Shown piece by piece: positions 1,438 to 41,493 of a stretch of DNA of 64,000 nucleotides (its first letter is position 1; the number at the start of each line of letters is the position of its first letter). The translations under genes and the position numbers were made by a program. The notes under the pieces are model-generated. The model saw nothing but the letters and a program-made list of their open reading frames with translations, was not told the DNA's origin and searched no databases. Origin of the DNA: Verrucomicrobiaceae bacterium (GTDB lineage: Bacteria > Verrucomicrobiota > Verrucomicrobiia > Verrucomicrobiales > Verrucomicrobiaceae); assembly GCA_947458455.1 (NCBI GenBank), contig CANGYJ010000008.1, forward strand, positions 186,001 to 250,000, in the 5' to 3' direction.

Positions 1438-3009
1438 ATGCGCCTTTTCCTGCTCTTTTCCCTCCTCCTTGTCTCCACCGGCATCTCCCCGGCGGCCGCC
1501 AAGCCGAACATCATCTTCATCCTTTGCGATGACCTCGGCTACGGCGATGTGAAATGCCTGAATCCCGAGGGAAAGATCGCCACGCCACAGATGGGTCGCC
1601 TCGCGGCTGAGGGCATGATCTTCACGGATGCGCACAGCGGATCGAGTGTGTGCACTCCCACCCGTTACGGCGTGATGACCGGCCGCTACGCTTGGCGTTC
1701 CAAGCTCCAAAGCAGCGTCCTCGGTGGTCTCTCACCGCGTTTGATTGAAAACGGCCGTCTCACCGTCGCCGAGTTCCTTCGTCAAAACGGCTACTCCACC
1801 GCCTGCGTGGGCAAATGGCACCTCGGCATGGATTGGGTGCGCCAAGGCGAGGTCACCGAGCTCGGCATCGAAAACGCCGAGCAGGTCAACAACGTCGATT
1901 ACACCCAACCGATCGCCAACGGACCCACCAGCGTGGGTTTTGATAGCTACTTCGGCATCAGCGCCTCGCTCGACATGGTGCCCTACTGCTTCATCGAAAA
2001 CGATCGCGTCCCGGCGAACCCCACCGAGACGATGAAGCTCGTCATGAACGGCTCTGATAAGATGAGCTTCACCCGCGAAGGCCCCGGCAGCCCCGGTTTC
2101 CGTGGCGAGGATGTGCTCCCCGCCTTCACCGAGCGGGCGGTGAAGATCATCCACGATAAATCCTCCGACGCCAAGAACGGCAAGCCCTTCTTCATCTACA
2201 TGCCGTTGAATTCACCGCACACACCGATCCTGCCGAGCAAGAAGTGGCAGGGCAAAAGCGGCCTCAGCCTCTATGCCGACTTTGTCATGGAGACCGATGA
2301 TGCCATCGGCCAGGTCATGGCCGCCACGGAGCAGGCCGGCATCGCTCAGGACACGCTCATCATCGTCACCAGTGACAACGGCTGCTCTCCGCAGGCCAAC
2401 TTCCCGCTGCATCTCGAAAAGGGCCACAACCCCAGCTACAACATGCGCGGGCACAAGGCGGACATCTACGATGGCGGCCACCGCGTGCCCTTCCTCGTGC
2501 GCTGGCCGGCGCAGGTCAAAGGCGGGCAAAAAACGGCACAGCTCACCTGCCTCACCGATTTCATGGCCACCGCCGCCGACATCCTCGGTCAGAAGCTTCC
2601 CGACAATGCCGCCGAGGATAGCTTCAGCTTCCTTCCGGCTCTCACCGGCCGAAAGAGCGAGGCCGCACGCCCCAACATCATCCATCACAGCATCAATGGC
2701 TCCTTCGCCATCCGCGAGGGCAGCATGAAACTCGAACTCTGTGCCGATTCCGGCGGCTGGAGCGATCCGCGTCCCGGCCAAGCCCCCAAAGGCAGCCCGG
2801 CCAGCCAGCTCTACGACCTCAGCAGCGACATCGCCGAGCAGGACAACCTCCTCGCCGCAAAGCCCGAGGCCGCCGCGAAGCTCGAAGCCCTGCTCGAATC
2901 CCAAATCGCCGCCGGTCGCAGCACGCCGGGCGCTGCACAGAAAAACGCCGTCGAGGTCGTCGTGCGCAAACCGGTGCCTGCTGCGAGGCCGAAGAAGGCG
3001 AAGAAGTGA
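1438..3009 (+). CDS. Secreted type I sulfatase (arylsulfatase family)
   Basis: A 523-residue protein with a signal peptide (residues 1-21, ending AAA) followed by the sulfatase fold. The metal-binding DD pair is at residues 31-32 and the active-site signature CTPTRYGVMTGR begins at C72. This Cys must be oxidised to formylglycine by a maturation enzyme that is not in this window. Later motifs include GKWHLG and SDNG, both typical of the alkaline phosphatase superfamily. It probably removes sulfate esters from glycans in the periplasm or outside the cell. The C-terminus is Lys/Ala/Pro-rich (KPVPAARPKKAKK). It follows the acyltransferase by 24 bases. Substrate specificity cannot be read from the sequence. 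Confidence 0.9.
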   Translation: MRLFLLFSLLLVSTGISPAAAKPNIIFILCDDLGYGDVKCLNPEGKIATPQMGRLAAEGMIFTDAHSGSSVCTPTRYGVMTGRYAWRSKLQSSVLGGLSPRLIENGRLTVAEFLRQNGYSTACVGKWHLGMDWVRQGEVTELGIENAEQVNNVDYTQPIANGPTSVGFDSYFGISASLDMVPYCFIENDRVPANPTETMKLVMNGSDKMSFTREGPGSPGFRGEDVLPAFTERAVKIIHDKSSDAKNGKPFFIYMPLNSPHTPILPSKKWQGKSGLSLYADFVMETDDAIGQVMAATEQAGIAQDTLIIVTSDNGCSPQANFPLHLEKGHNPSYNMRGHKADIYDGGHRVPFLVRWPAQVKGGQKTAQLTCLTDFMATAADILGQKLPDNAAEDSFSFLPALTGRKSEAARPNIIHHSINGSFAIREGSMKLELCADSGGWSDPRPGQAPKGSPASQLYDLSSDIAEQDNLLAAKPEAAAKLEALLESQIAAGRSTPGAAQKNAVEVVVRKPVPAARPKKAKK

Positions 3010-3263: not shown

Positions 3264-3298
3264 AATTCGTCATTCCACATTCGACATTCCGCATTCTT
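3264..3298. repeat. Heptamer-period intergenic repeat (CATTCNN type)
   Basis: Upstream of the TIM-barrel gene there are five successive 7-base units: AATTCGT at 3264, then four units of the form CATTCNN at 3271, 3278, 3285 and 3292. The ten-base core ATTCGTCATT at 3265-3274 is also found in the larger repeat at 17622-17782. In the frame of the downstream gene it translates to a spurious N-terminal extension rich in H, S and F. Confidence 0.7.
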
Positions 3299-3336: not shown

Positions 3337-4338
3337 ATGCCACGTCCCGTTACTCTCTTCACCGGCCAGTGGGCCGATCTTTCCTTCGACACCATGCTCC
3401 AAAAGGGCAAAAGCTTTGGCTATGATGGCCTGGAGCTCGCCTGCTGGGGTGATCACTTTGAAGTCGAAAAGGCCGACCAGGCCTACTGCGATGCCAAACG
3501 CGCCAAGCTGAAAGCCGCTGGCATGCAGTGCCACGCCATCTCCACCCATCTCGTCGGCCAGGCCGTGTGCGATAACATCGACCCGCGTCACAAGCAGATC
3601 CTCCCCGGCCACATCTATGGCGATGGCGATCCCGAAGGCGTCCGCCAGCGTGCTGCCGAGGAGCTCATCAAGACCGCCCATGCCGCAAAGCGCTTCGGCG
3701 TCAGCGTCGTGAACGGCTTCACCGGCAGCAGCATCTGGCACCTCGTCTATTCCTTCCCGCCGAATCTCCCCGGCCAGATTGATGCCGGTTACGCCGACTT
3801 CGCGAAGCGCTTCAAGCCCATCCTCGACGAGTATCAGAAGCTCGGCATCCGCTACGCTCTCGAAGTGCATCCCACCGAGATCGCCTTCGACATCGCCAGC
3901 GCCGAGCGCGCCCTCCAGGCCCTCGATTATCACCCCGCCTTCGGCTTCAACTACGACCCCAGCCACTTCGGCTACCAGGGCGTCGATTATGTGAAGTTCA
4001 TCTACCAGTTCAAAGATCGCATCTTCCACGTTCACATGAAGGATGTGGCCTGGGGCATCGGTGATGGCACCGCCGGCGTCTTCGGCGGCCACGTCGATTT
4101 CCACAAACCGAGCCGTTACTGGGACTTCAAGTCCGTCGGCCGTGGCAACATCAACTTCGAGCGCATCATCCGTGCTCTGAACGATATCGAGTACGGCGGC
4201 CCGCTCTCCGTCGAGTGGGAAGACGGTGCCATGGACCGCGAATTCGGTGCCACCGAATCCGCTGCCTTCGTGAAGAAGATCGACTTCCCGCCCTCGAAGA
4301 TCATCTTCGACGCCCAGTTCGCCGAGAACAGCAAATAA
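3337..4338 (+). CDS. Sugar phosphate isomerase/epimerase-like TIM-barrel protein
   Basis: A 333-residue cytoplasmic protein of the xylose isomerase-like TIM-barrel family (AP_endonuc_2). Probable metal ligands are visible in the expected order: E177 (ALEVHPTE), D207 and H210 ([10 protein letters not shown]), H233 (HVHMKD) and a Glu in LSVEWEDG near residue 300. Relatives isomerise or epimerise sugars and inositols. The ATG at 3337 is chosen because [17 protein letters not shown] begins the first barrel strand. The upstream in-frame ATG at 3184 would overlap the previous gene and translate the heptamer repeat. A rho-independent terminator follows the stop. The substrate is not known; nearby sulfatases suggest sugar catabolism. 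Confidence 0.85.
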
Positions 4339-16043: not shown

Positions 16044-17582
16044 TCAATCGAGGGTCTTTTTCGGTGGGGCGATGCCGACGGGGGCGGTGCCTGCGGGCGT
16101 GGGCTTGCGCACGGGCGCAGGCTCGAGTCGTTGAATCTCGTAGGTGGTGAGATTCACGGCGAGGTCGAGCTTGGCGAGGAAGTCCCAGGTGGCGGACACG
16201 CCGACTTCATCGGCGACTTGGCGGGCTTCGAGGTAGGCGTCGAAGGCATCGGGCATGACTTGGAAGAGGACGACGCCATTCGGATCGGCCTTCACATCAC
16301 GCATGAGGCGGATGAAGGCGGAATTGGGCTGCTTGAGGGCCTCGACGGTTTCTCCGCCGCCGCCTTTGGGTTTCAAGGCGAGGCGGATGTAGGCGAGCGT
16401 GGGCTGAAAATCCGGCTCGAAGGTGTAGGAGCCGGTGAGCAAGGGATTGGTGGCGGCGCGTTGCAGGAGCGATACGATGCGCGTCATGTCATAAACCGTG
16501 CGGGCCTTGCTGGCGTCTTCGATGCCTTTGAGCTTGGCGAGGTCTTTGACGAAGTAATCGAGCACGTCCTTCGGATTGGCCTTCACCTCGGCGGTTTTGG
16601 CGCCCCAGCCAAAGGTGATCTTGCCACCGGAGGCGGTGGCTTTGATGATGGGCGTGGCGGGATCGCGGGAGGGATCGAGCTTCACCCAATCGGCGGTGCT
16701 GCCTTTGCTGGCGCTGACGATGGCCGCAGCGACGACGGGCATCGTGCTGCGGGTGGGAATGGAAAGGTCCGCGATGGCTTCGAGGATCTGCTTGTTCGGT
16801 GTGATGCCACCTTCGGCGAGGACTTTGTAGGTTTCGGCGGCATGCTCGATCTGCATGCGGTTCACCAGCGGGGCGATTTCCGGCCAGGCCTTGGTGGCGT
16901 TGGCCCCGAGGATCTTTTCCATGAGCTTGGCAAAGATGGGATATTCCACTCGCTGGTATTCGAGCTGGGATTTGACCTTCTCCATGCCGTCGAGAATGGG
17001 CTGCATGAACTTCGGCTGGTTGAAGCTGAGCACGCCCTGCTTGGCGACGAGCACGCGGGTCTCGTTTGGCTTTTCAGGATACGGGCGCGGATTCGGCAGG
17101 CGGACGTATTTGGGCGGTGGCGGCTGATAGACGGGCGTTTGATCGAGTAGGGCTTTCAAACGCTCGACCTCGGCCTGGAGCTTGTCGGTGGCGGCTTTTT
17201 GGGCTTCGCGTTCCTTTTTCCGGAGTTCGAGCTGCTTCTTATACTCATCGAGATCCATCGACTTCATCTTCGATTCGAGATCGGAGACATCGACGGTCTT
17301 GAGATCTTCGAGGATCTTCTTGAGGTCCGTTTCGGCCTTCTTTTTCTGTTCTTCGAGCTGCTCGGGCGTGGGAAGCTTCGGCAGGCTTTTCGCGTTTTCG
17401 CGGATCTCAGCGAGTTCTTCCTTCGTGACGGGCGGGAGGTCCGAAAGCACGGTTTTGACCACATTCGACACGCTGAGGCCGACCATGACGAGCACGATGA
17501 TGAGCACGCCGACGACATTCGTCATCGTGTCCATCAGAGCGACAAAGGGAAGCTCTTGTTCTTCGTGTTTACGTTTCGACAT
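16044..17582 (-). CDS. ExbD-like membrane protein with coiled coil and large periplasmic domain
   Basis: A 512-residue protein with one N-terminal membrane helix (residues about 13-38) that carries Asp18 in the pattern F-V-A-L-M-D-T-M-x-N-x-V-G-V-L, resembling the proton-path helix of ExbD/TolR. A long charged coiled coil (about 60-170, rich in K, E and L) follows, then a Pro-rich linker (QTPVYQPPPPKY) and a mixed alpha/beta region. Near residues 435-475 the pattern NGVVLFQVMPDAFDAYLEARQVADEVGV resembles the small ExbD periplasmic domain. There is no OmpA-like peptidoglycan motif. The start at 17582 is chosen because upstream codons only translate heptamer repeats. The gene follows another ExbD-like gene and an ExbB-like gene. 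Confidence 0.7.
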   Translation of the reverse strand: MSKRKHEEQELPFVALMDTMTNVVGVLIIVLVMVGLSVSNVVKTVLSDLPPVTKEELAEIRENAKSLPKLPTPEQLEEQKKKAETDLKKILEDLKTVDVSDLESKMKSMDLDEYKKQLELRKKEREAQKAATDKLQAEVERLKALLDQTPVYQPPPPKYVRLPNPRPYPEKPNETRVLVAKQGVLSFNQPKFMQPILDGMEKVKSQLEYQRVEYPIFAKLMEKILGANATKAWPEIAPLVNRMQIEHAAETYKVLAEGGITPNKQILEAIADLSIPTRSTMPVVAAAIVSASKGSTADWVKLDPSRDPATPIIKATASGGKITFGWGAKTAEVKANPKDVLDYFVKDLAKLKGIEDASKARTVYDMTRIVSLLQRAATNPLLTGSYTFEPDFQPTLAYIRLALKPKGGGGETVEALKQPNSAFIRLMRDVKADPNGVVLFQVMPDAFDAYLEARQVADEVGVSATWDFLAKLDLAVNLTTYEIQRLEPAPVRKPTPAGTAPVGIAPPKKTLD

Positions 17583-17621: not shown

Positions 17622-17782
17622 GAATGACGAATGGAGCGGGGAATGACGAATGAGTAAGCCCGAATGACGAAAGAAGGTCGAAGCTCGAATGACGAAAGGC
17701 GTCCCCAACCTGCACTGGGCAGCAAGTTTGGGCATTCGGCATTGGGAGTTCTTTCGTCATTCGGATTTAGGAATTCGTCATT
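17622..17782. repeat. Heptamer-type intergenic repeat with inverted arms (GAATGACGAA)
   Basis: The 195-base gap between the two ExbD-like genes contains GAATGACGAA at 17622, 17641, 17662 and 17687, and its inverse complement at 17753 (exact) and 17773 (one mismatch), so the arms could fold together. The same ten-base core appears at 3265. Translated on the minus strand it gives repeated FxIRHS-like words, which explains spurious N-terminal extensions of the gene that follows. Confidence 0.75.
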
Positions 17783-18704
17783 TAGCGGCCGCTTTTTTTG
17801 GAGCTTCGGCTTTCGCGGGAGTAGCCGCAGGCGGCGAGGCAGGAGCGACGGGTGGCGGGGAGATTATGCCGCGGAATTTGTCGAACATGGCGAGGTCGAG
17901 CACGCCGCGGCCGGGGATGGGGAGCTTGCCGATGCGGACTTTGTAATCGTTGTCGGCACGACCAGCGCCGTTGTTGAAGGCAGCCTGGCCGTCATCGCGA
18001 ATGAGGAAGAGGACGAGAGCGTTGGGGATCTTGGCGACTTCGGTGAGGAAGTGATTGAAGACGACATCGGCGAGCACGACCTCGGCGGTGGCGGAGAGCG
18101 GGTAATCGTCCTTGCCCCAGGCGCTGAGGATTTTCAGGCGACCGGCGGTGGCCTCGACGAAGAAGACCTTGGTATCGGCCGCCATGCCGCCACCGGAGGG
18201 CTGGACGACGACAGGCGGCACTTTCTTATCGGCGGGCACCTGGCGTTCTTTGAGTTCGGCGGCGAGCTTTTCGAGCGCGGCTTTGGACTCGGCCTGCTGC
18301 TTTTTGAGGCCGTCGAGTTCGAGCATGAGGTCATCCAGCTCCTTCTGCATCTGCTGGGAGAGCTTCTGGTTGGTTTCAAGGATCTCCTTGGAGGTGGACT
18401 GGAGTTTGCGGAGCTTGATGAAGCGCTGCTGGCGCTCCTCGATCTGCTTTTTGAGTTCGTCGAGCGTGGCGACCTTCTCGTTGACGACGATCTCTTGTTT
18501 TTTGGTCTCGGTGATCTCTTTGCGCAGGCGCTTGGCCTCCTGGGCATCCTCTACCTCCTCGACGGTGCGGCCTTCCGTCTGCTGCGTCATGGAAACGCAC
18601 ATCACGACGATGATGAGCACCAGCACCCCGATGAGGGAGCACAGGATGTCCAGGAACGGAATCAGGAGGATTTCGTCTTTGGCAGCAGGTCTGCGTTTGG
18701 CCAT
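17778..18704 (-). CDS. ExbD-like membrane protein with coiled coil
   Basis: A 308-residue protein with one membrane helix (about residues 12-38, ILLIPFLDILCSLIGVLVLIIVVM) that has Asp19 at the place of the essential ExbD/TolR aspartate. A coiled coil of about 100 residues follows (EEVEDAQEAKRLRKEITETKKQEIV to ELKERQ). A compact alpha/beta domain with ADVVFNHFLTEVAKIPNALVLFLIRDDG resembles the periplasmic domain of ExbD. The tail is Pro/Ala/Lys-rich. It lies 18 bases downstream of the ExbB-like gene and is surely co-transcribed with it. It shares architecture, but little direct identity, with its downstream neighbour, which suggests a two-type ExbD subunit ring partner. Confidence 0.75.
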   Translation of the reverse strand: MAKRRPAAKDEILLIPFLDILCSLIGVLVLIIVVMCVSMTQQTEGRTVEEVEDAQEAKRLRKEITETKKQEIVVNEKVATLDELKKQIEERQQRFIKLRKLQSTSKEILETNQKLSQQMQKELDDLMLELDGLKKQQAESKAALEKLAAELKERQVPADKKVPPVVVQPSGGGMAADTKVFFVEATAGRLKILSAWGKDDYPLSATAEVVLADVVFNHFLTEVAKIPNALVLFLIRDDGQAAFNNGAGRADNDYKVRIGKLPIPGRGVLDLAMFDKFRGIISPPPVAPASPPAATPAKAEAPKKAAAK

Positions 18705-21684: not shown

Positions 21685-21727
21685 GGTGCTCGTTGGCTCA
21701 AAGTGCCTCCTCGCTCGCGTTCACTTC

Positions 21728-21827
21728 AGCAATCAGCAATGGGCGTTCAGCAATCTGCGGTTTCGGAGGCTGTGCGGCCGACGGAACCGGGAATCTCGAT
21801 TGCTGATTGATGATTGCTGATTTTTGA
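21728..21827. repeat. Heptamer-period intergenic repeat (CAGCAAT / ATTGCTG arms)
   Basis: Downstream of the MFS gene, CAGCAAT occurs at 21728, 21735 and 21749, all in the same 7-base register. After about 45 bases the inverse complement ATTGCTG occurs at 21800 and 21814 with an ATTGATG unit between, again in strict 7-base register. The two arms can pair as a long imperfect stem. It fills most of the 213-base gap between two convergent genes; no coding potential is seen. Confidence 0.75.
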
Positions 21828-21897
21828 AGTGTCTAAGGCGATCACTCGGCGGACATTCGTGAATTTAGTCAGTAGATAGCCCCTTGCCAGCGCCAGC

Positions 21898-27577: not shown

Positions 27578-27589
27578 AAGGCTGGGGAA

Positions 27590-27660
27590 CTGGAGTGATG
27601 GAGAATTGGAGTGCTGGGATACCCAACACTCCACCCATCCACTACTCCAACACTCCATCC
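27590..27660. repeat. Inverted short-repeat block (TGGAGTG / CACTCCA)
   Basis: Between two convergent genes, TGGAGTG at 27591 and TTGGAGTGCTGGG at 27606 face CCCAACACTCCA at 27622-27633 and further CACTCCA and ACTCCAA units at 27644-27657. The central part can form a hairpin around GGATAC. Part of it keeps a 7-base period. It resembles the other heptamer repeats in layout, with a different word. It could also work as a transcription end between the convergent genes. Confidence 0.6.
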
Positions 27661-27676
27661 ATCCCGCCCTGCCGGA

Positions 27677-34771: not shown

Positions 34772-35341
34772 TCAAGGGCGGCCGAGGAGCCTTTTGATGT
34801 CGTCTTCCGAGTAGGTCTTGCTGAGGTCGTCCAGCGGCCGGTTTTCGATGACCTTCGGCGCTTTGCCGATCTGCTGGTTGGAAGGCAGAGCGGAATCAAC
34901 ACCAAAGGCTTTGCCGCCATCCCGGAAGAAGCTGCCGCCATCTCGGGACATCTTGGTGGCATCGCGGCTCATGGAGGCGTCGAAGGCCTGATTTCCGAAG
35001 CGGCTCGCCTTTCCGCCTTCATTGAAAGCAGCCTGACCATCCCGCGACATCGTCAGCCCCTTGGCGTCGGAGGTTTTGAAGTAATTTAACCCCTTAGCCT
35101 GATTCGCCCCGCTAAAGCTCGAAGCATGATGTCCCTGTGTTTGCCACTTCGAACCGATGTTCCGGCCTTTTGACGGATCATTCATGTACTTCTGATATGG
35201 ACTGACGCGGTTCATGTCCGGCTTGTTGAGTCGCTGGCCGAGCGTCTGGCTCATCGGGTCCTTGTTCTTTTTGCTCTTGGTGCTGCACGAGCACAAAAAC
35301 ACCGCGCCAAGGCAGAGGATGATTTTGAAGAGAAACTTCAT
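34772..35341 (-). CDS. Small lipoprotein with SRDG repeats
   Basis: A 189-residue protein. Its signal peptide ends in the lipobox LCSC, with the lipid-bearing Cys at 19. The mature part is polar and low in hydrophobic residues, and carries the word (M)SRDG(x)AxF three or four times (SRDGQAAF, SRDATKMSRDGGSFF, RDGGKAF). The C-terminus holds a short acidic helix (SEDDIKRLL). Its ATG overlaps the stop of the giant TPR gene (ATGA), indicating coupled translation and suggesting a joint role in the envelope. No named family recognised. Confidence 0.75.
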   Translation of the reverse strand: MKFLFKIILCLGAVFLCSCSTKSKKNKDPMSQTLGQRLNKPDMNRVSPYQKYMNDPSKGRNIGSKWQTQGHHASSFSGANQAKGLNYFKTSDAKGLTMSRDGQAAFNEGGKASRFGNQAFDASMSRDATKMSRDGGSFFRDGGKAFGVDSALPSNQQIGKAPKVIENRPLDDLSKTYSEDDIKRLLGRP

Positions 35342-38300
35342 GGGGGTGGGGCGGCTTGGTCGAGCTGCTGCTTGGCGAGGAAGGCGGCTTCGCGGGCGGT
35401 GCCGGAGGGGAGGCGGTATTTCGGCAGCTCGGCGGCGAGGCTGCTTAGTTTCCCCCACGCGGCGTGGAGTTCAAACACGAGTTTTGCGACCTCGCCGGGC
35501 ATCGCCCAGTTCATGCGCATGAGGAAGGCCTCCGCGGCCTCGAAGTCTTTTTGGCGAATGAGAAAACGCGTCCACGCGGCGTGAATCTCTGGCTGCAAGC
35601 TCTCGCCGGCCTCGATCTGCCTCAGCGCGGCATCGAAAAGCTCGCGGGCGAGGTCCGCGTGACCCGTTTCCTCCAAAGCAAGCGCCCAGGCCACCGTCTG
35701 CCCGCCGCCGGGGAAGGGCATGCGCAGCGTCTCGTTGAAAAGCTCACGCACCTCCGCCTCGTCGCCCAAGGCCTGCGCCACGCGGACGGCGAGCGGCAGC
35801 TTGCGACCGCTCTCACGCAGCGTGGGGATGGAGGCGGCCACCTGGCAGGCCTGGCGTGCCCACGAGGCCTTTTGACCTTCGAGCAGGCGTTGTGCGGTCA
35901 GCTCGATGCAGAGGCGGTCTTTCTCGACAGCATCGGCCCAAGCCTGCCGGAGGATCGCAGGCGTGGTCTCATCCAAAACGCTGGCGAAAGCACTCAGCGC
36001 CAGCGCCGCAGCGGCTCGATCACTGCCTGCGGCGGCCTCAGCACGCAGCACGCGGACCCACGCGGCGGCGTGACGGCCTTCCGCTTCCTTTTTGAGCCAG
36101 TCGAGCAGGCGCACGAGCGTCTCGCGATCCCGTGTGGGCGTGCGGAAGAGCGCGGAAAGGCGGGCACGGTCCCGCTCCGGCGACCACGCGGCGTCCTGCG
36201 AGAGCCATTGAAGCTGCTCCAGCCGCAGCGTGAAGCGCTGATGATCCTCCTTCAGCGTGCGCTCAGCCTGCGTGAGGAAATTCAGCGCTTCCACGCGTCG
36301 TTCATGCGTCGCGAGCTCGCGGGAGATCACGAGCACGATGGCCAGCGATTTCAGCTCCACGGCCTGCACCTTCAGCTCGCCAAGCTCTTTCCAGTCGCCC
36401 ATGGCGGCGGCGAGACGCACGCGTTGATCGAGCGTGTCGTTCATCACCTCGGTCAGCGGTTCCTTCACCGGCACGGCACGCAGCGCTTCGACAGCTTCTT
36501 TGGGCCTCGCGAGACGCTGCAGCAGCTTCGCAAGGTGCAAATTGCCCTCCGCCTCGAAGTCGTGGCCGCTTTGATCATTCGCCGCAAACACCGCCTTCAA
36601 GTGCTGCCAAGCCTGCAACGCGGCCTGCTCGTTGCCCAAGCGTTCCTGCAACAGCGCATACGCCTTCAAATAGGGAATCTCATGCGGCTCGCGACCGGCG
36701 AGCACCTGCGAGATCTTTTCGCGGAAGGCATGCGTGCGCAGCTCGTCGAGGTTGAAATCGCGGGTGAGGAATAAGGCATGCTTCTCGCGCAAAACCTCAT
36801 CGCCGATGGCCGGCGGCTTATTCGGAGCCTCGGCGGTGAGCAGGTGATACGAGAAGGAGCAGCCGGGCTCCACATCGCCGGAGTTTTCACAGGCTCGAAG
36901 AAGCCACTGCGCATAATCGGGATTCGACGGCGCACGATCCGGGAGCTGGCGATACACCGTCACCGCCTCGCGAGACATGCCGGCGCTTTCCAGACGGCTG
37001 CCGAGATTGCCAAGTGTGTCCACGCTGTGCTCCGTGCGCATGTCCACACTCGCCAGATGCTCGCGGATGAGGCGCAGACGCGTGGGATAATCCACCGGGC
37101 GCAGTTTGGAAAGCAGCGCATGAATGCGCCACTCGCCGAATTCCGTGTCGGACCTCGGCGCGAGCATCGTCGTGCCCCAGCGCTGCTCCAGCTCGGCGTT
37201 CGTGCCTTTGATGGCGCCGCCGAGACCTTGCTGGCGCAGGATCATTTGCAGCTCGCGAGTCTCCTCCCACAGGCTGCGCACATGCTGAGCCTCCTCGTAG
37301 CGAGAAGAACCCTGCGGCATCAAATTACCGCGCCCATCGCTCATCTGGCGCGTGGTGCTAAAATCCCCGGTGAAGAAACCACCAAGCTTTTTCGCCGCGG
37401 CCTCATCCGCACCTGCCACGCCTTCCACCGCCGCCTGGCGGATGATGGTGAGATCACTCGGCGTCGAGCGCTGGAGGCGACGCCACGCGTTTTGCGTGAT
37501 CGCATCGCGTTCCGGCTTCGAGCCAGCCACGCGTTGCAGAGAGGAAAAGCTCGACAGGAAGGTATCGAAGCGGCTGCGATACGCCTCCGGCAGCAGCGGC
37601 GCGTTCACCGCCTCTTGAAGGTAATGCCGCGCCAGTTTCCAATCCTCAGCACTCTCCGCGATGCGGGCGAGGAAGAGCGAGTAGATCGATGATTTGTCCA
37701 TCGTCTGCCGTGGCAAGCCCTCGCCGAGTGCGAGCGCCTCGTGATAGCGTTGTTTACCCTTCAACTTGTCCGTCACATCCCAGATGGCCGCCGTGCGCAT
37801 CACCTTCGAGCGACCGAGCTGCCTCAGCTCGTCTTCGCTGAATCGAAACCCCTCCGCATCGACCAGCATCGACACGCAGGCATGCACCAGCCGCTCCCGC
37901 GCCGCGATGACCTCCGGCATCAAGGCTCCCGGCGCGGCCCATGCGATCGCATCGCTCATGCCGTGGCTGCGCAACGTCATCCACAGCAGGCAAAACTGGC
38001 CTTCCAGTGTGCCTTGATCGCCTTGCAGCATCGTTTGCAGCAGCTTGCGGAATTCCTCACCTTCACCGCTGTAATGCAGCGCCCAGAGTTTTTCCCAGTC
38101 CGAGTGCAAACCAGTGCTCCACTGCCGGATCCACGCCTCGAGCGACTTGCCACCGCTTTGTGTCTTCAGCTTCGACAGCTCCTCAATCGCCCGCAAACGC
38201 ACCAGCGCCGCATCCTCCGGCACCTCGGCGAATTCCGGCCTCGGCATCGAGAGAAAGGTGCGCAGCTTCTCGATCTCCAGCTTTTCAATACCCGGCGCAA

Positions 38301-41300
38301 AATCCAGCAACGGAGCCAGATCGCTCACCGGACTCTTCGCGCCTGATTTTCGGCCATCGCTCAGCGGCAGCGGACCGCGCATGCCGGTGCGGGTGATCAT
38401 GGCCTTCGTTTTGAGCGCCAAAATCTGCTCCAGATGCTTCTCCGCGCCTGCGGTGTCCGCAAAGCGCAGACACTTCAAAGCCAGGCGCAGCAGCGAGCGG
38501 GTATCCCACGACTGCACCTTCACCACCTGCTCATACACACGCTTCTCCGCCTCGTCCTGGCCGGTCGTTTGATAATGCTTCGCCAGCTCATCGAGCGCCT
38601 TCACATCCTGCGAGAAGCGGCTTTCCAGCCGACGCCGCACACGATCCGCCTCATCAATCTGAAACGTCTGCTCCAGCAGCTCCACCAAACGACGCGACTC
38701 CGCCGCCAGCTCCTGCGGTGGCGAGGCAGCGGCGATCTGCTTCTGGAAATAGATCGCCGATTTCACATCACCCACCTTCAGCGCCGCCTCGCGAAGCTGG
38801 TCGAGCGAGAAAGGCGTCTCCGGTGCGGTGTAATACGCCTGCTTCATGCTCGCGAAGGCCTTGGCATGATCTCCCTGCCGCTCCGCCACCATCGCCAGCG
38901 CCTCGTGGTAAAAGCCATCGAAAAGGTGACGCTGCAAAAGACCGCGCAACGCATTCTCCACGAGCTGCAGCCGGTCCTTCACCACACTCGGAGCCAGCTC
39001 GCCGCCGCTCGCATCGGAGAAGGTCAGGCGGTCCACGCAGCGGCTGAGCATCTCGCGACGCCGCTTGATGTCCGTCTCACGTTCCAAAATCAGCGCCTGC
39101 GTCTGCACGAAATTTTCCAGCCTGTTCAAACGCAGCAGCAGATCCGCATGCCGCTCCATCAGCGCTGCGGCGGTGGTTCCCTCCGCCCGCTTCACCGCTG
39201 CTTTCCAAAGCGCCAGCACATCGTCCGTGCGGCGTTGCAGCAGATACACCTGCGTTAGTGCCGAAAGGATCTGCTCGGACTCCGGCATGTCGCGATAAGC
39301 TCTTTCGAGCAACTTCGCCGCCATCAGACCCGGCACCGGCGAGGTGCCCATCATCCGCCAGCCCGCGCCACCGACCTCTGCCGTGGCACGACGCTCGCTT
39401 TCGAGCATCAACTCGCTCAAACGCAGCGTGTGACGCACGCGACCCGCCACATCCGTCTCGATCAGACGCTTCAACTGCCGCTCCTGCAGCGCCAGATTTT
39501 CATCCGCTACGGCCAGATCGAGCTTCAACTGCTCCACGGCGGGTGAGAGCGGCTTCAGCCCGCCTTTCGCATCGAATTCGAGGTTTTGAAGAATGGCGTA
39601 ACCATCCTCCTTGTGCTGCGTGCGCACCGCCCACCACAGCGCCCGGAAGCGTTCCGCCTCGCTTCCCTTGGCCGCAAGCGCCGCCAGCTCCCGCGCCTTG
39701 TCCTCGACGGCTTCGGGGAAGGTTTCGCGATTCTGGTTTTCAGGCTCGTCGGAGCCAAAACCAGCTCCGGTGAAGGCATTGGGCAAAGTGAACTCCGAGG
39801 TCTTCTGGCCCTTTTGCGTCGATTCGTCCTTCCCGCCCATCAAAATCGAAAACAGACGTTCATCGGCATCGATGCGTTCTTCATCCGTCGTGCTCGCCGA
39901 CCATGCTTTTTCGATCCACTCAGCCGCTTCATCATTGTCACCCTGCTCCGCGAGTAGATCCGCGAGCCTCAACCACGCATCACGACCCGCATCCGGCTTC
40001 GACACGGATTCACGAGCCAGCATGATGGCGCTGTCGAGGTTGTTGCTGGAGGCGAGAAAGGCCGCCGCATCACCGAGACGCTTCTGACGCTCCGCGTCGT
40101 TGGCCGCGCCGTTGGTGAATTCACGCAGCAGCTTGTCCTCCGCCGCCACATCGCGACGCGCCCGATAGTAAGCCGCCAGCTCGAAGACCGCTTCCGTCAT
40201 CTGCGGATCACGATCCACGCGACCGCGCAGGATCTTTTCGATCACCGCATCGAGGGATCGAGACTGTGCAAACACGAGCACCTGCTTCTCCACCTCCCCA
40301 TCGGCCTGCGTATCGAGCAGCTTCACCAGCCTCGTGATAGCCGCCGCAGGATCAACACTGCGCAGATCCGCCTCGCAGCGCAGCAAAACCACCGCCGGCA
40401 AATCGCTGCCATCGTTTTTGAGCCGTTCATCGAGCAGCTTCGCCGCCTCCGCCGCGCTCTCATGGTCGAGCAAAGCCCGCACGAGCTCCCAGCGATAGTC
40501 TTCCACCTGCGGCACGGCCTTCACCAGCTCGCGCAGCCATTTCACCTGCTCGTCCACCTCCACGGTGAGATCAAAAAAACGCGTCGCATCCCACAGCGCC
40601 TGCTCCGAGGGCGGCTGCGCCTTCGCGGCGGTCAGCAGCGCCTTTTGCAAATCCTCGAGCATGCCGAAGCGCTCATGCAGTCGCACCCGGCGACGAAAGA
40701 AATCAAAGTAGCGACCATCGCGGAAATGCAGCAGCGCTAGGCCGTCACGCAGCGCCTTGTCCGCCTTCGCGAACTGGTCCGCGTGCTCATAAATGCGGGC
40801 AAGGTCGTAAAGCGCATCGAGCCGGCGTTGCGGGTCTTTTTGATCCGCCAGCTTCGAGAAGAAAGCGCCTGCCCGATCTGGAAAACCCGCCTGGAGGAGC
40901 AACTGCGCCACCTGCCGTGCCAACGTAAAATCCTCCGGCTGCATCTGCGCCGCCTTTTCCCATGCTTCCGCAGCTTCCGCGTTCTTGCCGATGCCCAGTG
41001 AGAGATTGCCGATCTCAATCCACACCGCCGTGCTCGCTGATTTTTCCGCCAGACGCTTCAACAAGGCCACCGCCTCCTCCGGCTGCTTCAGCTCCACCGC
41101 CACATCCGCCCGGCCCCGCATCGCAAACACATTCGCCGCGTCCAGCTTGAGCACCTCGTCATACTTCGCCGCCGCCGCCTTCAGGTCACCGGCACGCCGC
41201 AGCAGATGCCCATGCACCAGCAGCACGCTCGGATGCCTCGACGAGGCCGCCTGCGCCGCCACATTCTCCACCAGCAGCTTCGTGGACTCATGCTTCTCAT

Positions 41301-41493
41301 ATAGCGTCCACAGCAGCTCGACGACGCGGCCATACTCCGGCTGCTGCACCAGCAGCGAGAGATACTCATTCGCCAGCCTCGTATCCCGCTCCGCCCACGG
41401 CTTCGGCGCATTTTGACCATTCGCCGAAACAACCAATACCGCCGCCGCCATGAGGCAGCGAAGGTGAAAAGCCAGTCCCGGAGTGTTTCGCAT
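35338..41493 (-). CDS. Giant exported TPR-repeat protein
   Basis: A 2051-residue protein, the largest in the window. After a signal peptide (MRNTPGLAFHLRCLMAAAVLVVSANG) it is almost wholly alpha-helical, with TPR-like helical pairs throughout, for example EYGRVVELLWTLYEK, AGDLKAAAAKYDEVLKLDAANVFAMRGRADVAVELKQPEEAVALLKRLAE and later LEEAGRPKEAVEALRAVP-like units. TPR proteins usually act as scaffolds, so it may organise an envelope complex. The start at 41493 is the ATG that gives a signal peptide. Its stop overlaps the start of a lipoprotein gene by four bases. No enzymatic domain is recognised. The frame is intact across the whole length. Confidence 0.85.
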   Translation of the reverse strand: MRNTPGLAFHLRCLMAAAVLVVSANGQNAPKPWAERDTRLANEYLSLLVQQPEYGRVVELLWTLYEKHESTKLLVENVAAQAASSRHPSVLLVHGHLLRRAGDLKAAAAKYDEVLKLDAANVFAMRGRADVAVELKQPEEAVALLKRLAEKSASTAVWIEIGNLSLGIGKNAEAAEAWEKAAQMQPEDFTLARQVAQLLLQAGFPDRAGAFFSKLADQKDPQRRLDALYDLARIYEHADQFAKADKALRDGLALLHFRDGRYFDFFRRRVRLHERFGMLEDLQKALLTAAKAQPPSEQALWDATRFFDLTVEVDEQVKWLRELVKAVPQVEDYRWELVRALLDHESAAEAAKLLDERLKNDGSDLPAVVLLRCEADLRSVDPAAAITRLVKLLDTQADGEVEKQVLVFAQSRSLDAVIEKILRGRVDRDPQMTEAVFELAAYYRARRDVAAEDKLLREFTNGAANDAERQKRLGDAAAFLASSNNLDSAIMLARESVSKPDAGRDAWLRLADLLAEQGDNDEAAEWIEKAWSASTTDEERIDADERLFSILMGGKDESTQKGQKTSEFTLPNAFTGAGFGSDEPENQNRETFPEAVEDKARELAALAAKGSEAERFRALWWAVRTQHKEDGYAILQNLEFDAKGGLKPLSPAVEQLKLDLAVADENLALQERQLKRLIETDVAGRVRHTLRLSELMLESERRATAEVGGAGWRMMGTSPVPGLMAAKLLERAYRDMPESEQILSALTQVYLLQRRTDDVLALWKAAVKRAEGTTAAALMERHADLLLRLNRLENFVQTQALILERETDIKRRREMLSRCVDRLTFSDASGGELAPSVVKDRLQLVENALRGLLQRHLFDGFYHEALAMVAERQGDHAKAFASMKQAYYTAPETPFSLDQLREAALKVGDVKSAIYFQKQIAAASPPQELAAESRRLVELLEQTFQIDEADRVRRRLESRFSQDVKALDELAKHYQTTGQDEAEKRVYEQVVKVQSWDTRSLLRLALKCLRFADTAGAEKHLEQILALKTKAMITRTGMRGPLPLSDGRKSGAKSPVSDLAPLLDFAPGIEKLEIEKLRTFLSMPRPEFAEVPEDAALVRLRAIEELSKLKTQSGGKSLEAWIRQWSTGLHSDWEKLWALHYSGEGEEFRKLLQTMLQGDQGTLEGQFCLLWMTLRSHGMSDAIAWAAPGALMPEVIAARERLVHACVSMLVDAEGFRFSEDELRQLGRSKVMRTAAIWDVTDKLKGKQRYHEALALGEGLPRQTMDKSSIYSLFLARIAESAEDWKLARHYLQEAVNAPLLPEAYRSRFDTFLSSFSSLQRVAGSKPERDAITQNAWRRLQRSTPSDLTIIRQAAVEGVAGADEAAAKKLGGFFTGDFSTTRQMSDGRGNLMPQGSSRYEEAQHVRSLWEETRELQMILRQQGLGGAIKGTNAELEQRWGTTMLAPRSDTEFGEWRIHALLSKLRPVDYPTRLRLIREHLASVDMRTEHSVDTLGNLGSRLESAGMSREAVTVYRQLPDRAPSNPDYAQWLLRACENSGDVEPGCSFSYHLLTAEAPNKPPAIGDEVLREKHALFLTRDFNLDELRTHAFREKISQVLAGREPHEIPYLKAYALLQERLGNEQAALQAWQHLKAVFAANDQSGHDFEAEGNLHLAKLLQRLARPKEAVEALRAVPVKEPLTEVMNDTLDQRVRLAAAMGDWKELGELKVQAVELKSLAIVLVISRELATHERRVEALNFLTQAERTLKEDHQRFTLRLEQLQWLSQDAAWSPERDRARLSALFRTPTRDRETLVRLLDWLKKEAEGRHAAAWVRVLRAEAAAGSDRAAAALALSAFASVLDETTPAILRQAWADAVEKDRLCIELTAQRLLEGQKASWARQACQVAASIPTLRESGRKLPLAVRVAQALGDEAEVRELFNETLRMPFPGGGQTVAWALALEETGHADLARELFDAALRQIEAGESLQPEIHAAWTRFLIRQKDFEAAEAFLMRMNWAMPGEVAKLVFELHAAWGKLSSLAAELPKYRLPSGTAREAAFLAKQQLDQAAPPP

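Follow-up and report, generated by a model that had tools for sequence, protein, structure and literature searches.

Four intergenic sites within the window, by which we mean the whole 64-kb stretch of DNA that was analysed, carry short repeated words (Table 1). Site 1 is flanked by genes for a sulfatase (1438-3009) and a TIM-barrel protein (3337-4338), both assigned with Pfam; site 2 lies between two minus-strand genes (17778-18704 and 16044-17582), from whose sense its own strand was assigned; and sites 3 and 4 are both located between convergent genes. Comparison of the window with Rfam families at the gathering score returned no matches. A very long reading frame of ~2000 codons on the minus strand (35338-41349) was also called as a gene.

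Table 1. Repeat sites of the window and their parts, numbered from the first base of the window.
Feature	Start	End	Strand	Description
Site 1	3265	3296	+	Solo CATTCNN heptamer array without inverted partner; lag-7 score 15
Site 2	17622	17782	-	Family-1 inverted-repeat element; two lag-7 segments and inverted arms
Site 2, left arm	17622	17701	+	GAATGNN-type words; lag-7 segment
Site 2, right arm	17728	17782	-	Reverse complement of GAATGNN-type words; lag-7 segment
TGA stop codon of gene 17778-18704	17778	17780	-	Inside the site-2 end word AATGACG
Site 3	21723	21830	-	Family-2 element; ends near ACTTCA(A/G)CAATCAGCAAT; two end types, one end of each
Site 4	27583	27674	.	Element of 8-nt period (TGGAGTGN and its inverse), between convergent genes

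A blind scan compared the window with itself at several lags, and local scores of at least 9 were counted as segments. At lag 7, such segments were found only at sites 1-3 (3265-3296; 17622-17701 together with 17728-17782; 21783-21827), while at site 4 (about 27583-27674) the period is 8 and not 7 (lag-8 segment 27623-27674; TRF periods 16 and 8). The first-pass annotation had placed all four sites in a 7-base register, which holds for sites 1-3 but not for site 4, where the period of 8 makes its description of CACTCCA words in that register wrong. It had also described arms that are inverse complements at three of the sites, and indeed the arms of sites 2, 3 and 4 were in each case matched by 0/100 shuffles, while at site 1 an inverted partner sought in the same manner was absent (P = 0.82). 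Its view that the words differ and the architecture is shared was likewise borne out.

These patterns were then counted in a genome sample consisting of the window and 20 systematic 20-kb stretches (464 kb, 84% coding), with gene limits taken from a custom codon-usage script and not from a standard annotation. Fifteen lag-7 segments lie in the 74.8 kb of intergenic sequence and four in the 389 kb of coding sequence, compared to 0.4 in dinucleotide shuffles of the sample (mean of 5). The corresponding intergenic, coding and shuffled counts are 9, 2 and 0.6 for lag 8 and 11, 4 and 0 for lag 14. Of the remaining lags in the range 4-30, multiples of 3 aside, lags 16, 25 and 28 yielded three intergenic segments each and the others 0-2; lags that are multiples of 3 are common within genes. 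The first-pass annotation had held that similar counts in shuffled sequence, or frequent repeats inside genes, would speak against a repeat family; since segments at lags 7, 8 and 14 are concentrated in intergenic DNA, the excess is real. A chance origin of the repeats was ruled out by these shuffle counts together with the reversed-word control given below.

The repeated words vary and include GAATGNN, AAGTTCC, GATTTCA, ATTGCTG, AACCTGA, AAAGGGC and octamers such as ACTCCANN. After merging of intergenic sites with a period of 7, 8, 14 or 16 in the 464-kb sample, an inverted partner was detected (P <= 0.01) for 13/25 and no clear one for 12/25. Further periodic words (AAGTTCC/TTCAACG, AACCTGA, GCTCTTT and CTCTGCC-type octamers), some of them with an inverted partner, were observed at L034 18128-18266, L036 13278-13350, L036 14738-14767, L049 1949-1971 and L044 15222-15251, and these probably represent additional families of like build.

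The 5.35-Mb genome contains 81 occurrences of the CATTCNN word in three units (CATTCNNCATTCNNCATTC) and 0 of the reversed control. Many of these sites resolve as an inverted-repeat element, here termed family 1, whose ends read AATGACG-AAACCAG-AATGNNG-AATGA from the outside in. Allowing up to 3 mismatches, this end was found as 90 arms genome-wide (control, 0), and allowing up to 4 mismatches as 110 arms within 777 kb of the genome. Neighboring arms less than 500 bp apart (n = 32) are arranged as '+ then -' in 28 cases, as '- then -' in four and as '- then +' in none, and the spans of the 28 '+ then -' pairs are 72-168 bp in all but two (292 and 448 bp). The limits of the elements are sharp, and the sequences flanking them show no evident relationship to one another. 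Among the 28 pairs, none had an exact target duplication of at least 4 nt, flank repeats shorter than 4 nt being indistinguishable from chance; softer flank comparisons fell below 0.05 in 2/21 cases (0.041 and 0.009).

The two ends of a family-1 element differ in their inner words, and in co-directional contexts the type of inner word follows the direction of transcription (21 vs 4 for the 5' arm and 21 vs 6 for the 3' arm; Fisher's test, 8.7e-6), a rule that was drawn post hoc from the same data, with 32/84 arms unclassified and the arms of one element not independent of each other. The third arm word (AG or GC) showed no clear relation to gene direction. Some elements are mosaic, a second repeat (CTCGCTTCGCTCGG-like, with GTCTGTCTCGC) lying inside them or replacing a part of them (L029, L030, L063, L190 and L191). 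Additionally, nearly perfect arrays of CATTCAT or CATTCGT with no inverted partner in view were seen on contigs C6 and C2 and at the end of C12 (L057, L011 and L069); these pure arrays include ~15 CATTCAT units on C6 and a CATTCGT run that lies less than 100 bases from the end of contig C12.

Family-1 arms are positioned non-uniformly relative to genes: 84 of the 110 lie between co-directional genes, 6 between convergent and 7 between divergent genes, 10 within called genes and 3 in undecided contexts, while gene pairs in the genome sample number 206 co-directional, 60 convergent and 60 divergent. The 5' arm starts between -19 and +19 nt from the upstream stop codon in 39/39 cases, and in seven 5' arms the offset is -5, which places the TGA inside the first word of the element. 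On the other side, the distance from the end of the 3' arm to the downstream start ranges from -2 to 232 nt (n = 45). Among complete elements between co-directional genes (n = 24), 21 are nearer to the upstream stop, two nearer to the start and one equally distant. A GC-rich mini-palindrome of 11-15 nt (CCGGCTGCGCCGG, CCGCTATGCGG) is often present between the stop codon and the arm, and its stem bases vary yet remain complementary (for example at C15_57900, C3_350001, C4_17200, C22_8400 and C5_88400).

At site 2, the occupied state can be compared with an empty one. The two flanking genes are adjacent in congeners as well, where 36 matches were reduced to 29 loci with 22 readable and 7 unreadable spacers. 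The spacer is 195 nt here, most of it element, compared to 2-26 nt in the 22 readable congener spacers; we therefore conclude that the element was gained at this site, and the short spacers also indicate that site 2 probably lies inside an operon. In one relative (G016), in which the block is alignable at 68-82% DNA identity, the spacer is 14 nt and starts with TGACG, as found in the end word of the element. Occupied and empty states were established in relatives at this one site; at site 3, the neighboring genes differ in the relatives' loci examined, which thus offer no synteny.

In the genome, the element at 21723-21830 is matched by 18 further sequences of 80 nt or longer, with identities of 73-90%, a range that gives no sign of a recent burst. 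In alignment, these sequences have sharp ends and terminal repeats near ACTTCAACAATCAGCAATCG, and the resulting family 2 comprises 21 copies in the genome DNA searched, of which 15 lie in co-directional, three in convergent and three in divergent contexts (11 sense and 4 antisense, not significant). Scored on their inner parts, against consensuses that were derived from the same 21 copies, the ends comprise one of each type in 18/21, one type twice in 1/21 and an undecided combination in 2/21. No exact flank repeat of at least 4 nt was present in the 21 copies. Site 4 belongs to an octamer family, for which 69 matching pieces, the query included, were obtained at E values up to 1.

We next considered RNA structure, which the first-pass annotation had put forward as a possible function. 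The 26 family-1 elements folded have a mean z of -6.1 relative to dinucleotide shuffles, so that a hairpin is possible. Strand-specific stability was considered as well and rejected, sense and antisense strands folding about equally. Pairing follows from the inverted ends themselves, and the similarity between the two arms within an element scarcely exceeds that between arms from different elements (P = 0.055, 0.18 and 0.21 over 18, 26 and 34 nt, not significant), so that selection for pairing is not demonstrated.

Twelve matches to Y1 transposases, probably representing 11 genes, were identified in the genome. Neither a lag-7 array nor a family-1 arm was present at any of the 12 loci, searched to about 1.5 kb on each side, while the family-2 word CAATCAG occurs once each in two of them. 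Five loci examined for inverted repeats contained other, GC-rich palindromes; these five genes (L313, L314, L315, L319 and L323) are each framed by palindromes of their own and are candidate ordinary REP systems. Among the transposases examined, namely the Y1 loci, no autonomous copy or mobiliser was found.

Outside this genome, three units of CATTCNN were found in 34/39 genomes of the genus (0 to 255 matches each), the family-1 end in 46/68 genomes and 7/11 genera of the bacterial family, and the general word in 30/145 genomes and 28/82 genera of the phylum. Copies are numerous in genomes G001, G011 and G015. Four units of CATTCNN occur in at least 118 stretches of named species from many phyla, Prosthecobacter records included. 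Among the matches listed, 124 clusters have a four-unit run, 108 of them direct only and 16 inverted, and the GAATG arm comes first in 16/16 of the inverted clusters listed. Furthermore, a long reading frame ends -25 to +60 nt from the matching end in 10/16 of these listed inverted clusters, compared to a mean of 2.1 and a maximum of 7 in 200 trials at random places, which include coding DNA. The clusters across phyla may belong to one family or may be parallel cases.

In several genes, the arm encodes the start of the protein and forms an N-terminus of the secreted type. Three such genes have a Pfam sulfatase domain behind the arm-encoded start, from residue 24 in L357 (MKQLAVFLSSFLILVSSFAASPRPN...), residue 26 in L332 (MKLGTLACLLSSFLILVSSFAAEPRPN...) and residue 22 in L055; in L338 and L327 the called start lies at or inside the sulfatase domain, and an arm-encoded stretch with a start codon of its own is directly upstream. 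Because the domain either begins right after the arm or extends as far as it, these five sulfatases probably use the arm as a genuine signal peptide. The first-pass annotation had regarded such readings as false N-terminal extensions, which describes many cases but probably not these five. The five proteins are 26-36% identical in pairwise matches and all contain the arm-encoded stretch, which may reflect common descent. Solo arms probably serve further genes as apparent signal peptides too. Weaker cases are L051 (Pfam SASA, with the domain further in), L352 (a weak pectate-lyase match) and L066, in which the arm supplies the leader of a prepilin-type N_methyl motif; L019, L050 and L333 are candidates by their look, and L050 gave no Pfam match. 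The sequence CATTCT(G/A)NNTTCG is present in 7/13 candidate N-termini and, in 6 of the 7, is read in the same frame without charged residues. On the minus strand of L065, a sulfatase-like start (MFRSLLLLVSSFAIPHSSFSAQPNVIVILADDLG) is formed from the same words, and the remainder of that gene was left uncalled by the script.

The history of one such start was traced in a tree of the L357 sulfatase and its homologues in congeners, built from 18/28 loci picked by hand, with 10 more distant ones left out. Arm-like signal peptides are found in four rows of a fully supported five-row clade (L357 itself and sequences 89, 84 and 83% identical to it), while the fifth row (86%) and 13 rows outside the clade have ordinary signal peptides; one of the rows outside, L370 (70%), has perhaps a decayed arm. 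The tree requires two changes, such as one gain and one loss.

On balance, we lean toward the interpretation that the sites are small dispersed inverted-repeat elements, MITE-like non-autonomous hairpins whose arms also change by steps of 7 nt. Like MITEs, they are short and dispersed, with inverted ends and sharp limits; like tandem heptamers, they consist of 7-nt units repeated in tandem between genes more often than chance would give, site 4 being built of octamers. Unlike plain tandem heptamers, families 1 and 2, the two for which this was established, are bounded. The elements resemble MITEs in look and may do so in working as well, and we do not claim membership in that class, as the search for target duplications came up empty and the elements have no known parent transposon. 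The mobile origin that the first-pass annotation had listed among its options is supported by the sharp-ended dispersed copies and by the gain at site 2.

Under this MITE-like interpretation, each arm would be a run of 7-nt words (8-nt at site 4) and the two ends of an element would be unlike. A master copy, presumably moved in trans by some enzyme, would have seeded numerous loci, preferentially spots just behind stop codons between co-directional genes. There the element would become part of the upstream gene's transcript, in which it can form a long, imperfect hairpin; unless it is neutral, the main role of this hairpin would be to protect or process the 3' end of that message and not to terminate transcription. 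Once settled, arms would gain and lose 7-nt units, and solo arms beside a start codon, read in the uncharged frame (for example, SSFLILVSSF), could give rise to signal peptides that plausibly work as such.

A rather unlikely alternative is that the repeats arose in place, with polymerase slippage producing local heptamer arrays, template switching at hairpins producing inverted arms and bias making the words recur. Slippage was also among the origins named by the first-pass annotation, and it fits the pure arrays on C6 and C12 but not the pairing of two unlike end types. Heptamers are reported to outnumber other long simple repeats in most of the bacterial genomes that are rich in repeats, and slippage, an explanation due to Mrazek, is the sole reason offered for them in the portions of PMC4679880 and PMC4692102 available to us. 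The direct-only clusters in other species (108/124 among the matches listed) and the drift of words along arrays there agree with it, whereas it accounts poorly for sharp ends with unrelated flanks and for the single polarity of inverted pairs (28/28 here, and 16/16 elsewhere among the matches listed). Selection could instead have maintained a cis-acting RNA element, spread by recombination, whose hairpin behind the stop codon serves mRNA processing or stability. The stop-codon position, the direction of the ends and the strong folding all favor such a role, and ERIC repeats are reported, in the text available, to act on mRNA in one orientation (PMC2229807). However, the arms lack clear co-variation, the two strands fold about equally, none of the 22 readable congener spacers holds a counterpart of site 2 and three units of CATTCNN are absent from 5/39 genus genomes, and we consider this account distinctly unlikely.

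With 12 Y1 matches in the genome and arm pairs that are REPIN-like in layout, mobilization by RAYT (Y1) transposases might be expected, but the lack of lag-7 arrays and family-1 arms at all 12 loci, five of which have other GC-rich palindromes where examined, makes REPIN-like elements of that kind very improbable. The first-pass annotation had also suggested that the repeats serve termination between convergent genes. Both site 3 and site 4 are so placed and the hairpins are strong, but only 6/110 family-1 arms (against 84 in co-directional contexts) and 3/21 family-2 copies lie between convergent genes, 0/45 downstream family-1 ends have at least 5 T in the next 8 bases, and site 2 probably lies within an operon, given the 2-26 nt spacers of the 22 congeners; the suggestion does not hold up, and we attach next to no likelihood to a terminator function. 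In the other direction, the MITE-like interpretation can be extended to a class of 7- or 8-nt-period hairpin elements of fixed polarity, aimed at stop codons in many phyla and moved by as yet undescribed machinery. In this extension, which we offer as a doubtful conjecture, the 7-nt period would run the words through all three reading frames, so that an arm would supply stop codons at gene ends when read one way and the core of a signal peptide when read the other, and the elements would provide a constant supply of new signal peptides.

No description of the family was seen in listings of literature on Verrucomicrobia or Prosthecobacter and their heptamer or palindromic repeats, nor in listings on repeats associated with signal peptides or stop codons, subscription journals being mostly outside these searches; literature matching the DNA words and peptides was unrelated as far as titles show. 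The likeness to cyanobacterial heptamer repeats drawn by the first-pass annotation finds support in the available parts of two papers (PMC4692102; PMC4679880). The GGGAATC repeats of Xanthomonas and the GGGGA(C/T)T repeats of Nostoc are, like the present elements, intergenic tandem heptamers; they lie nearer to the upstream gene, at an average of 28 nt, often between aligned genes, and in some cases overlap the stop codon (PMC4692102). They differ in being G-rich and studied as quadruplex formers, and the text available describes no bounded, two-ended inverted-repeat element (PMC4692102). TAACTGA repeats of Beggiatoaceae, cyanobacteria and Bacteroidetes are also intergenic heptamers with a patchy distribution over distant phyla, but according to the portions seen they are direct (169 direct sets vs one indirect), have one fixed word and lie mostly just upstream of start codons (PMC4679880). 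Similarly, the part of PMC2700814 available reports 49 dispersed elements of four tandem heptamers (consensus GGACCGG) in Geobacter metallireducens, which have another word, occur also within genes and are described there as direct repeats only.

Bacterial MITEs (Correia/NEMIS, ERIC, RUP, RPE and YAPL) share with the present elements a length of about 100-170 bp, inverted ends and a dispersed, intergenic distribution, and are sometimes in frame within genes, a Yersinia YAPL copy being part of a signal peptide (YPO1552); relative to these MITEs, as far as that source was available, the present elements differ in the 7- or 8-nt periodicity of their arms, their position at stop codons, the lack of an exact target duplication and the use of an arm as the N-terminus of several genes (PMC2229807). 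REP elements with GTAG or CGTC tags are likewise dispersed intergenic palindromes in oppositely oriented pairs, and CGTC is present in arms of this genome, perhaps by chance; in the pages of PMC3733652 at hand, however, CGTC families have short stems of 8-9 bp with loops of 4-5 nt, and GTAG families accompany Y1 transposases, a link not seen here at the 12 Y1 loci. In the present genome, heptamers form the arms of elements that have defined limits and a direction and are anchored at stop codons. This puts the heptamer question into a testable form, and an arm that forms the N-terminus of several secreted-type enzymes, traced over orthologues, is a candidate case of non-coding repeats making parts of proteins. 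Compared to known repeats, it is the anchoring at stop codons, the two unlike ends and the recruitment as signal peptides that are unusual.
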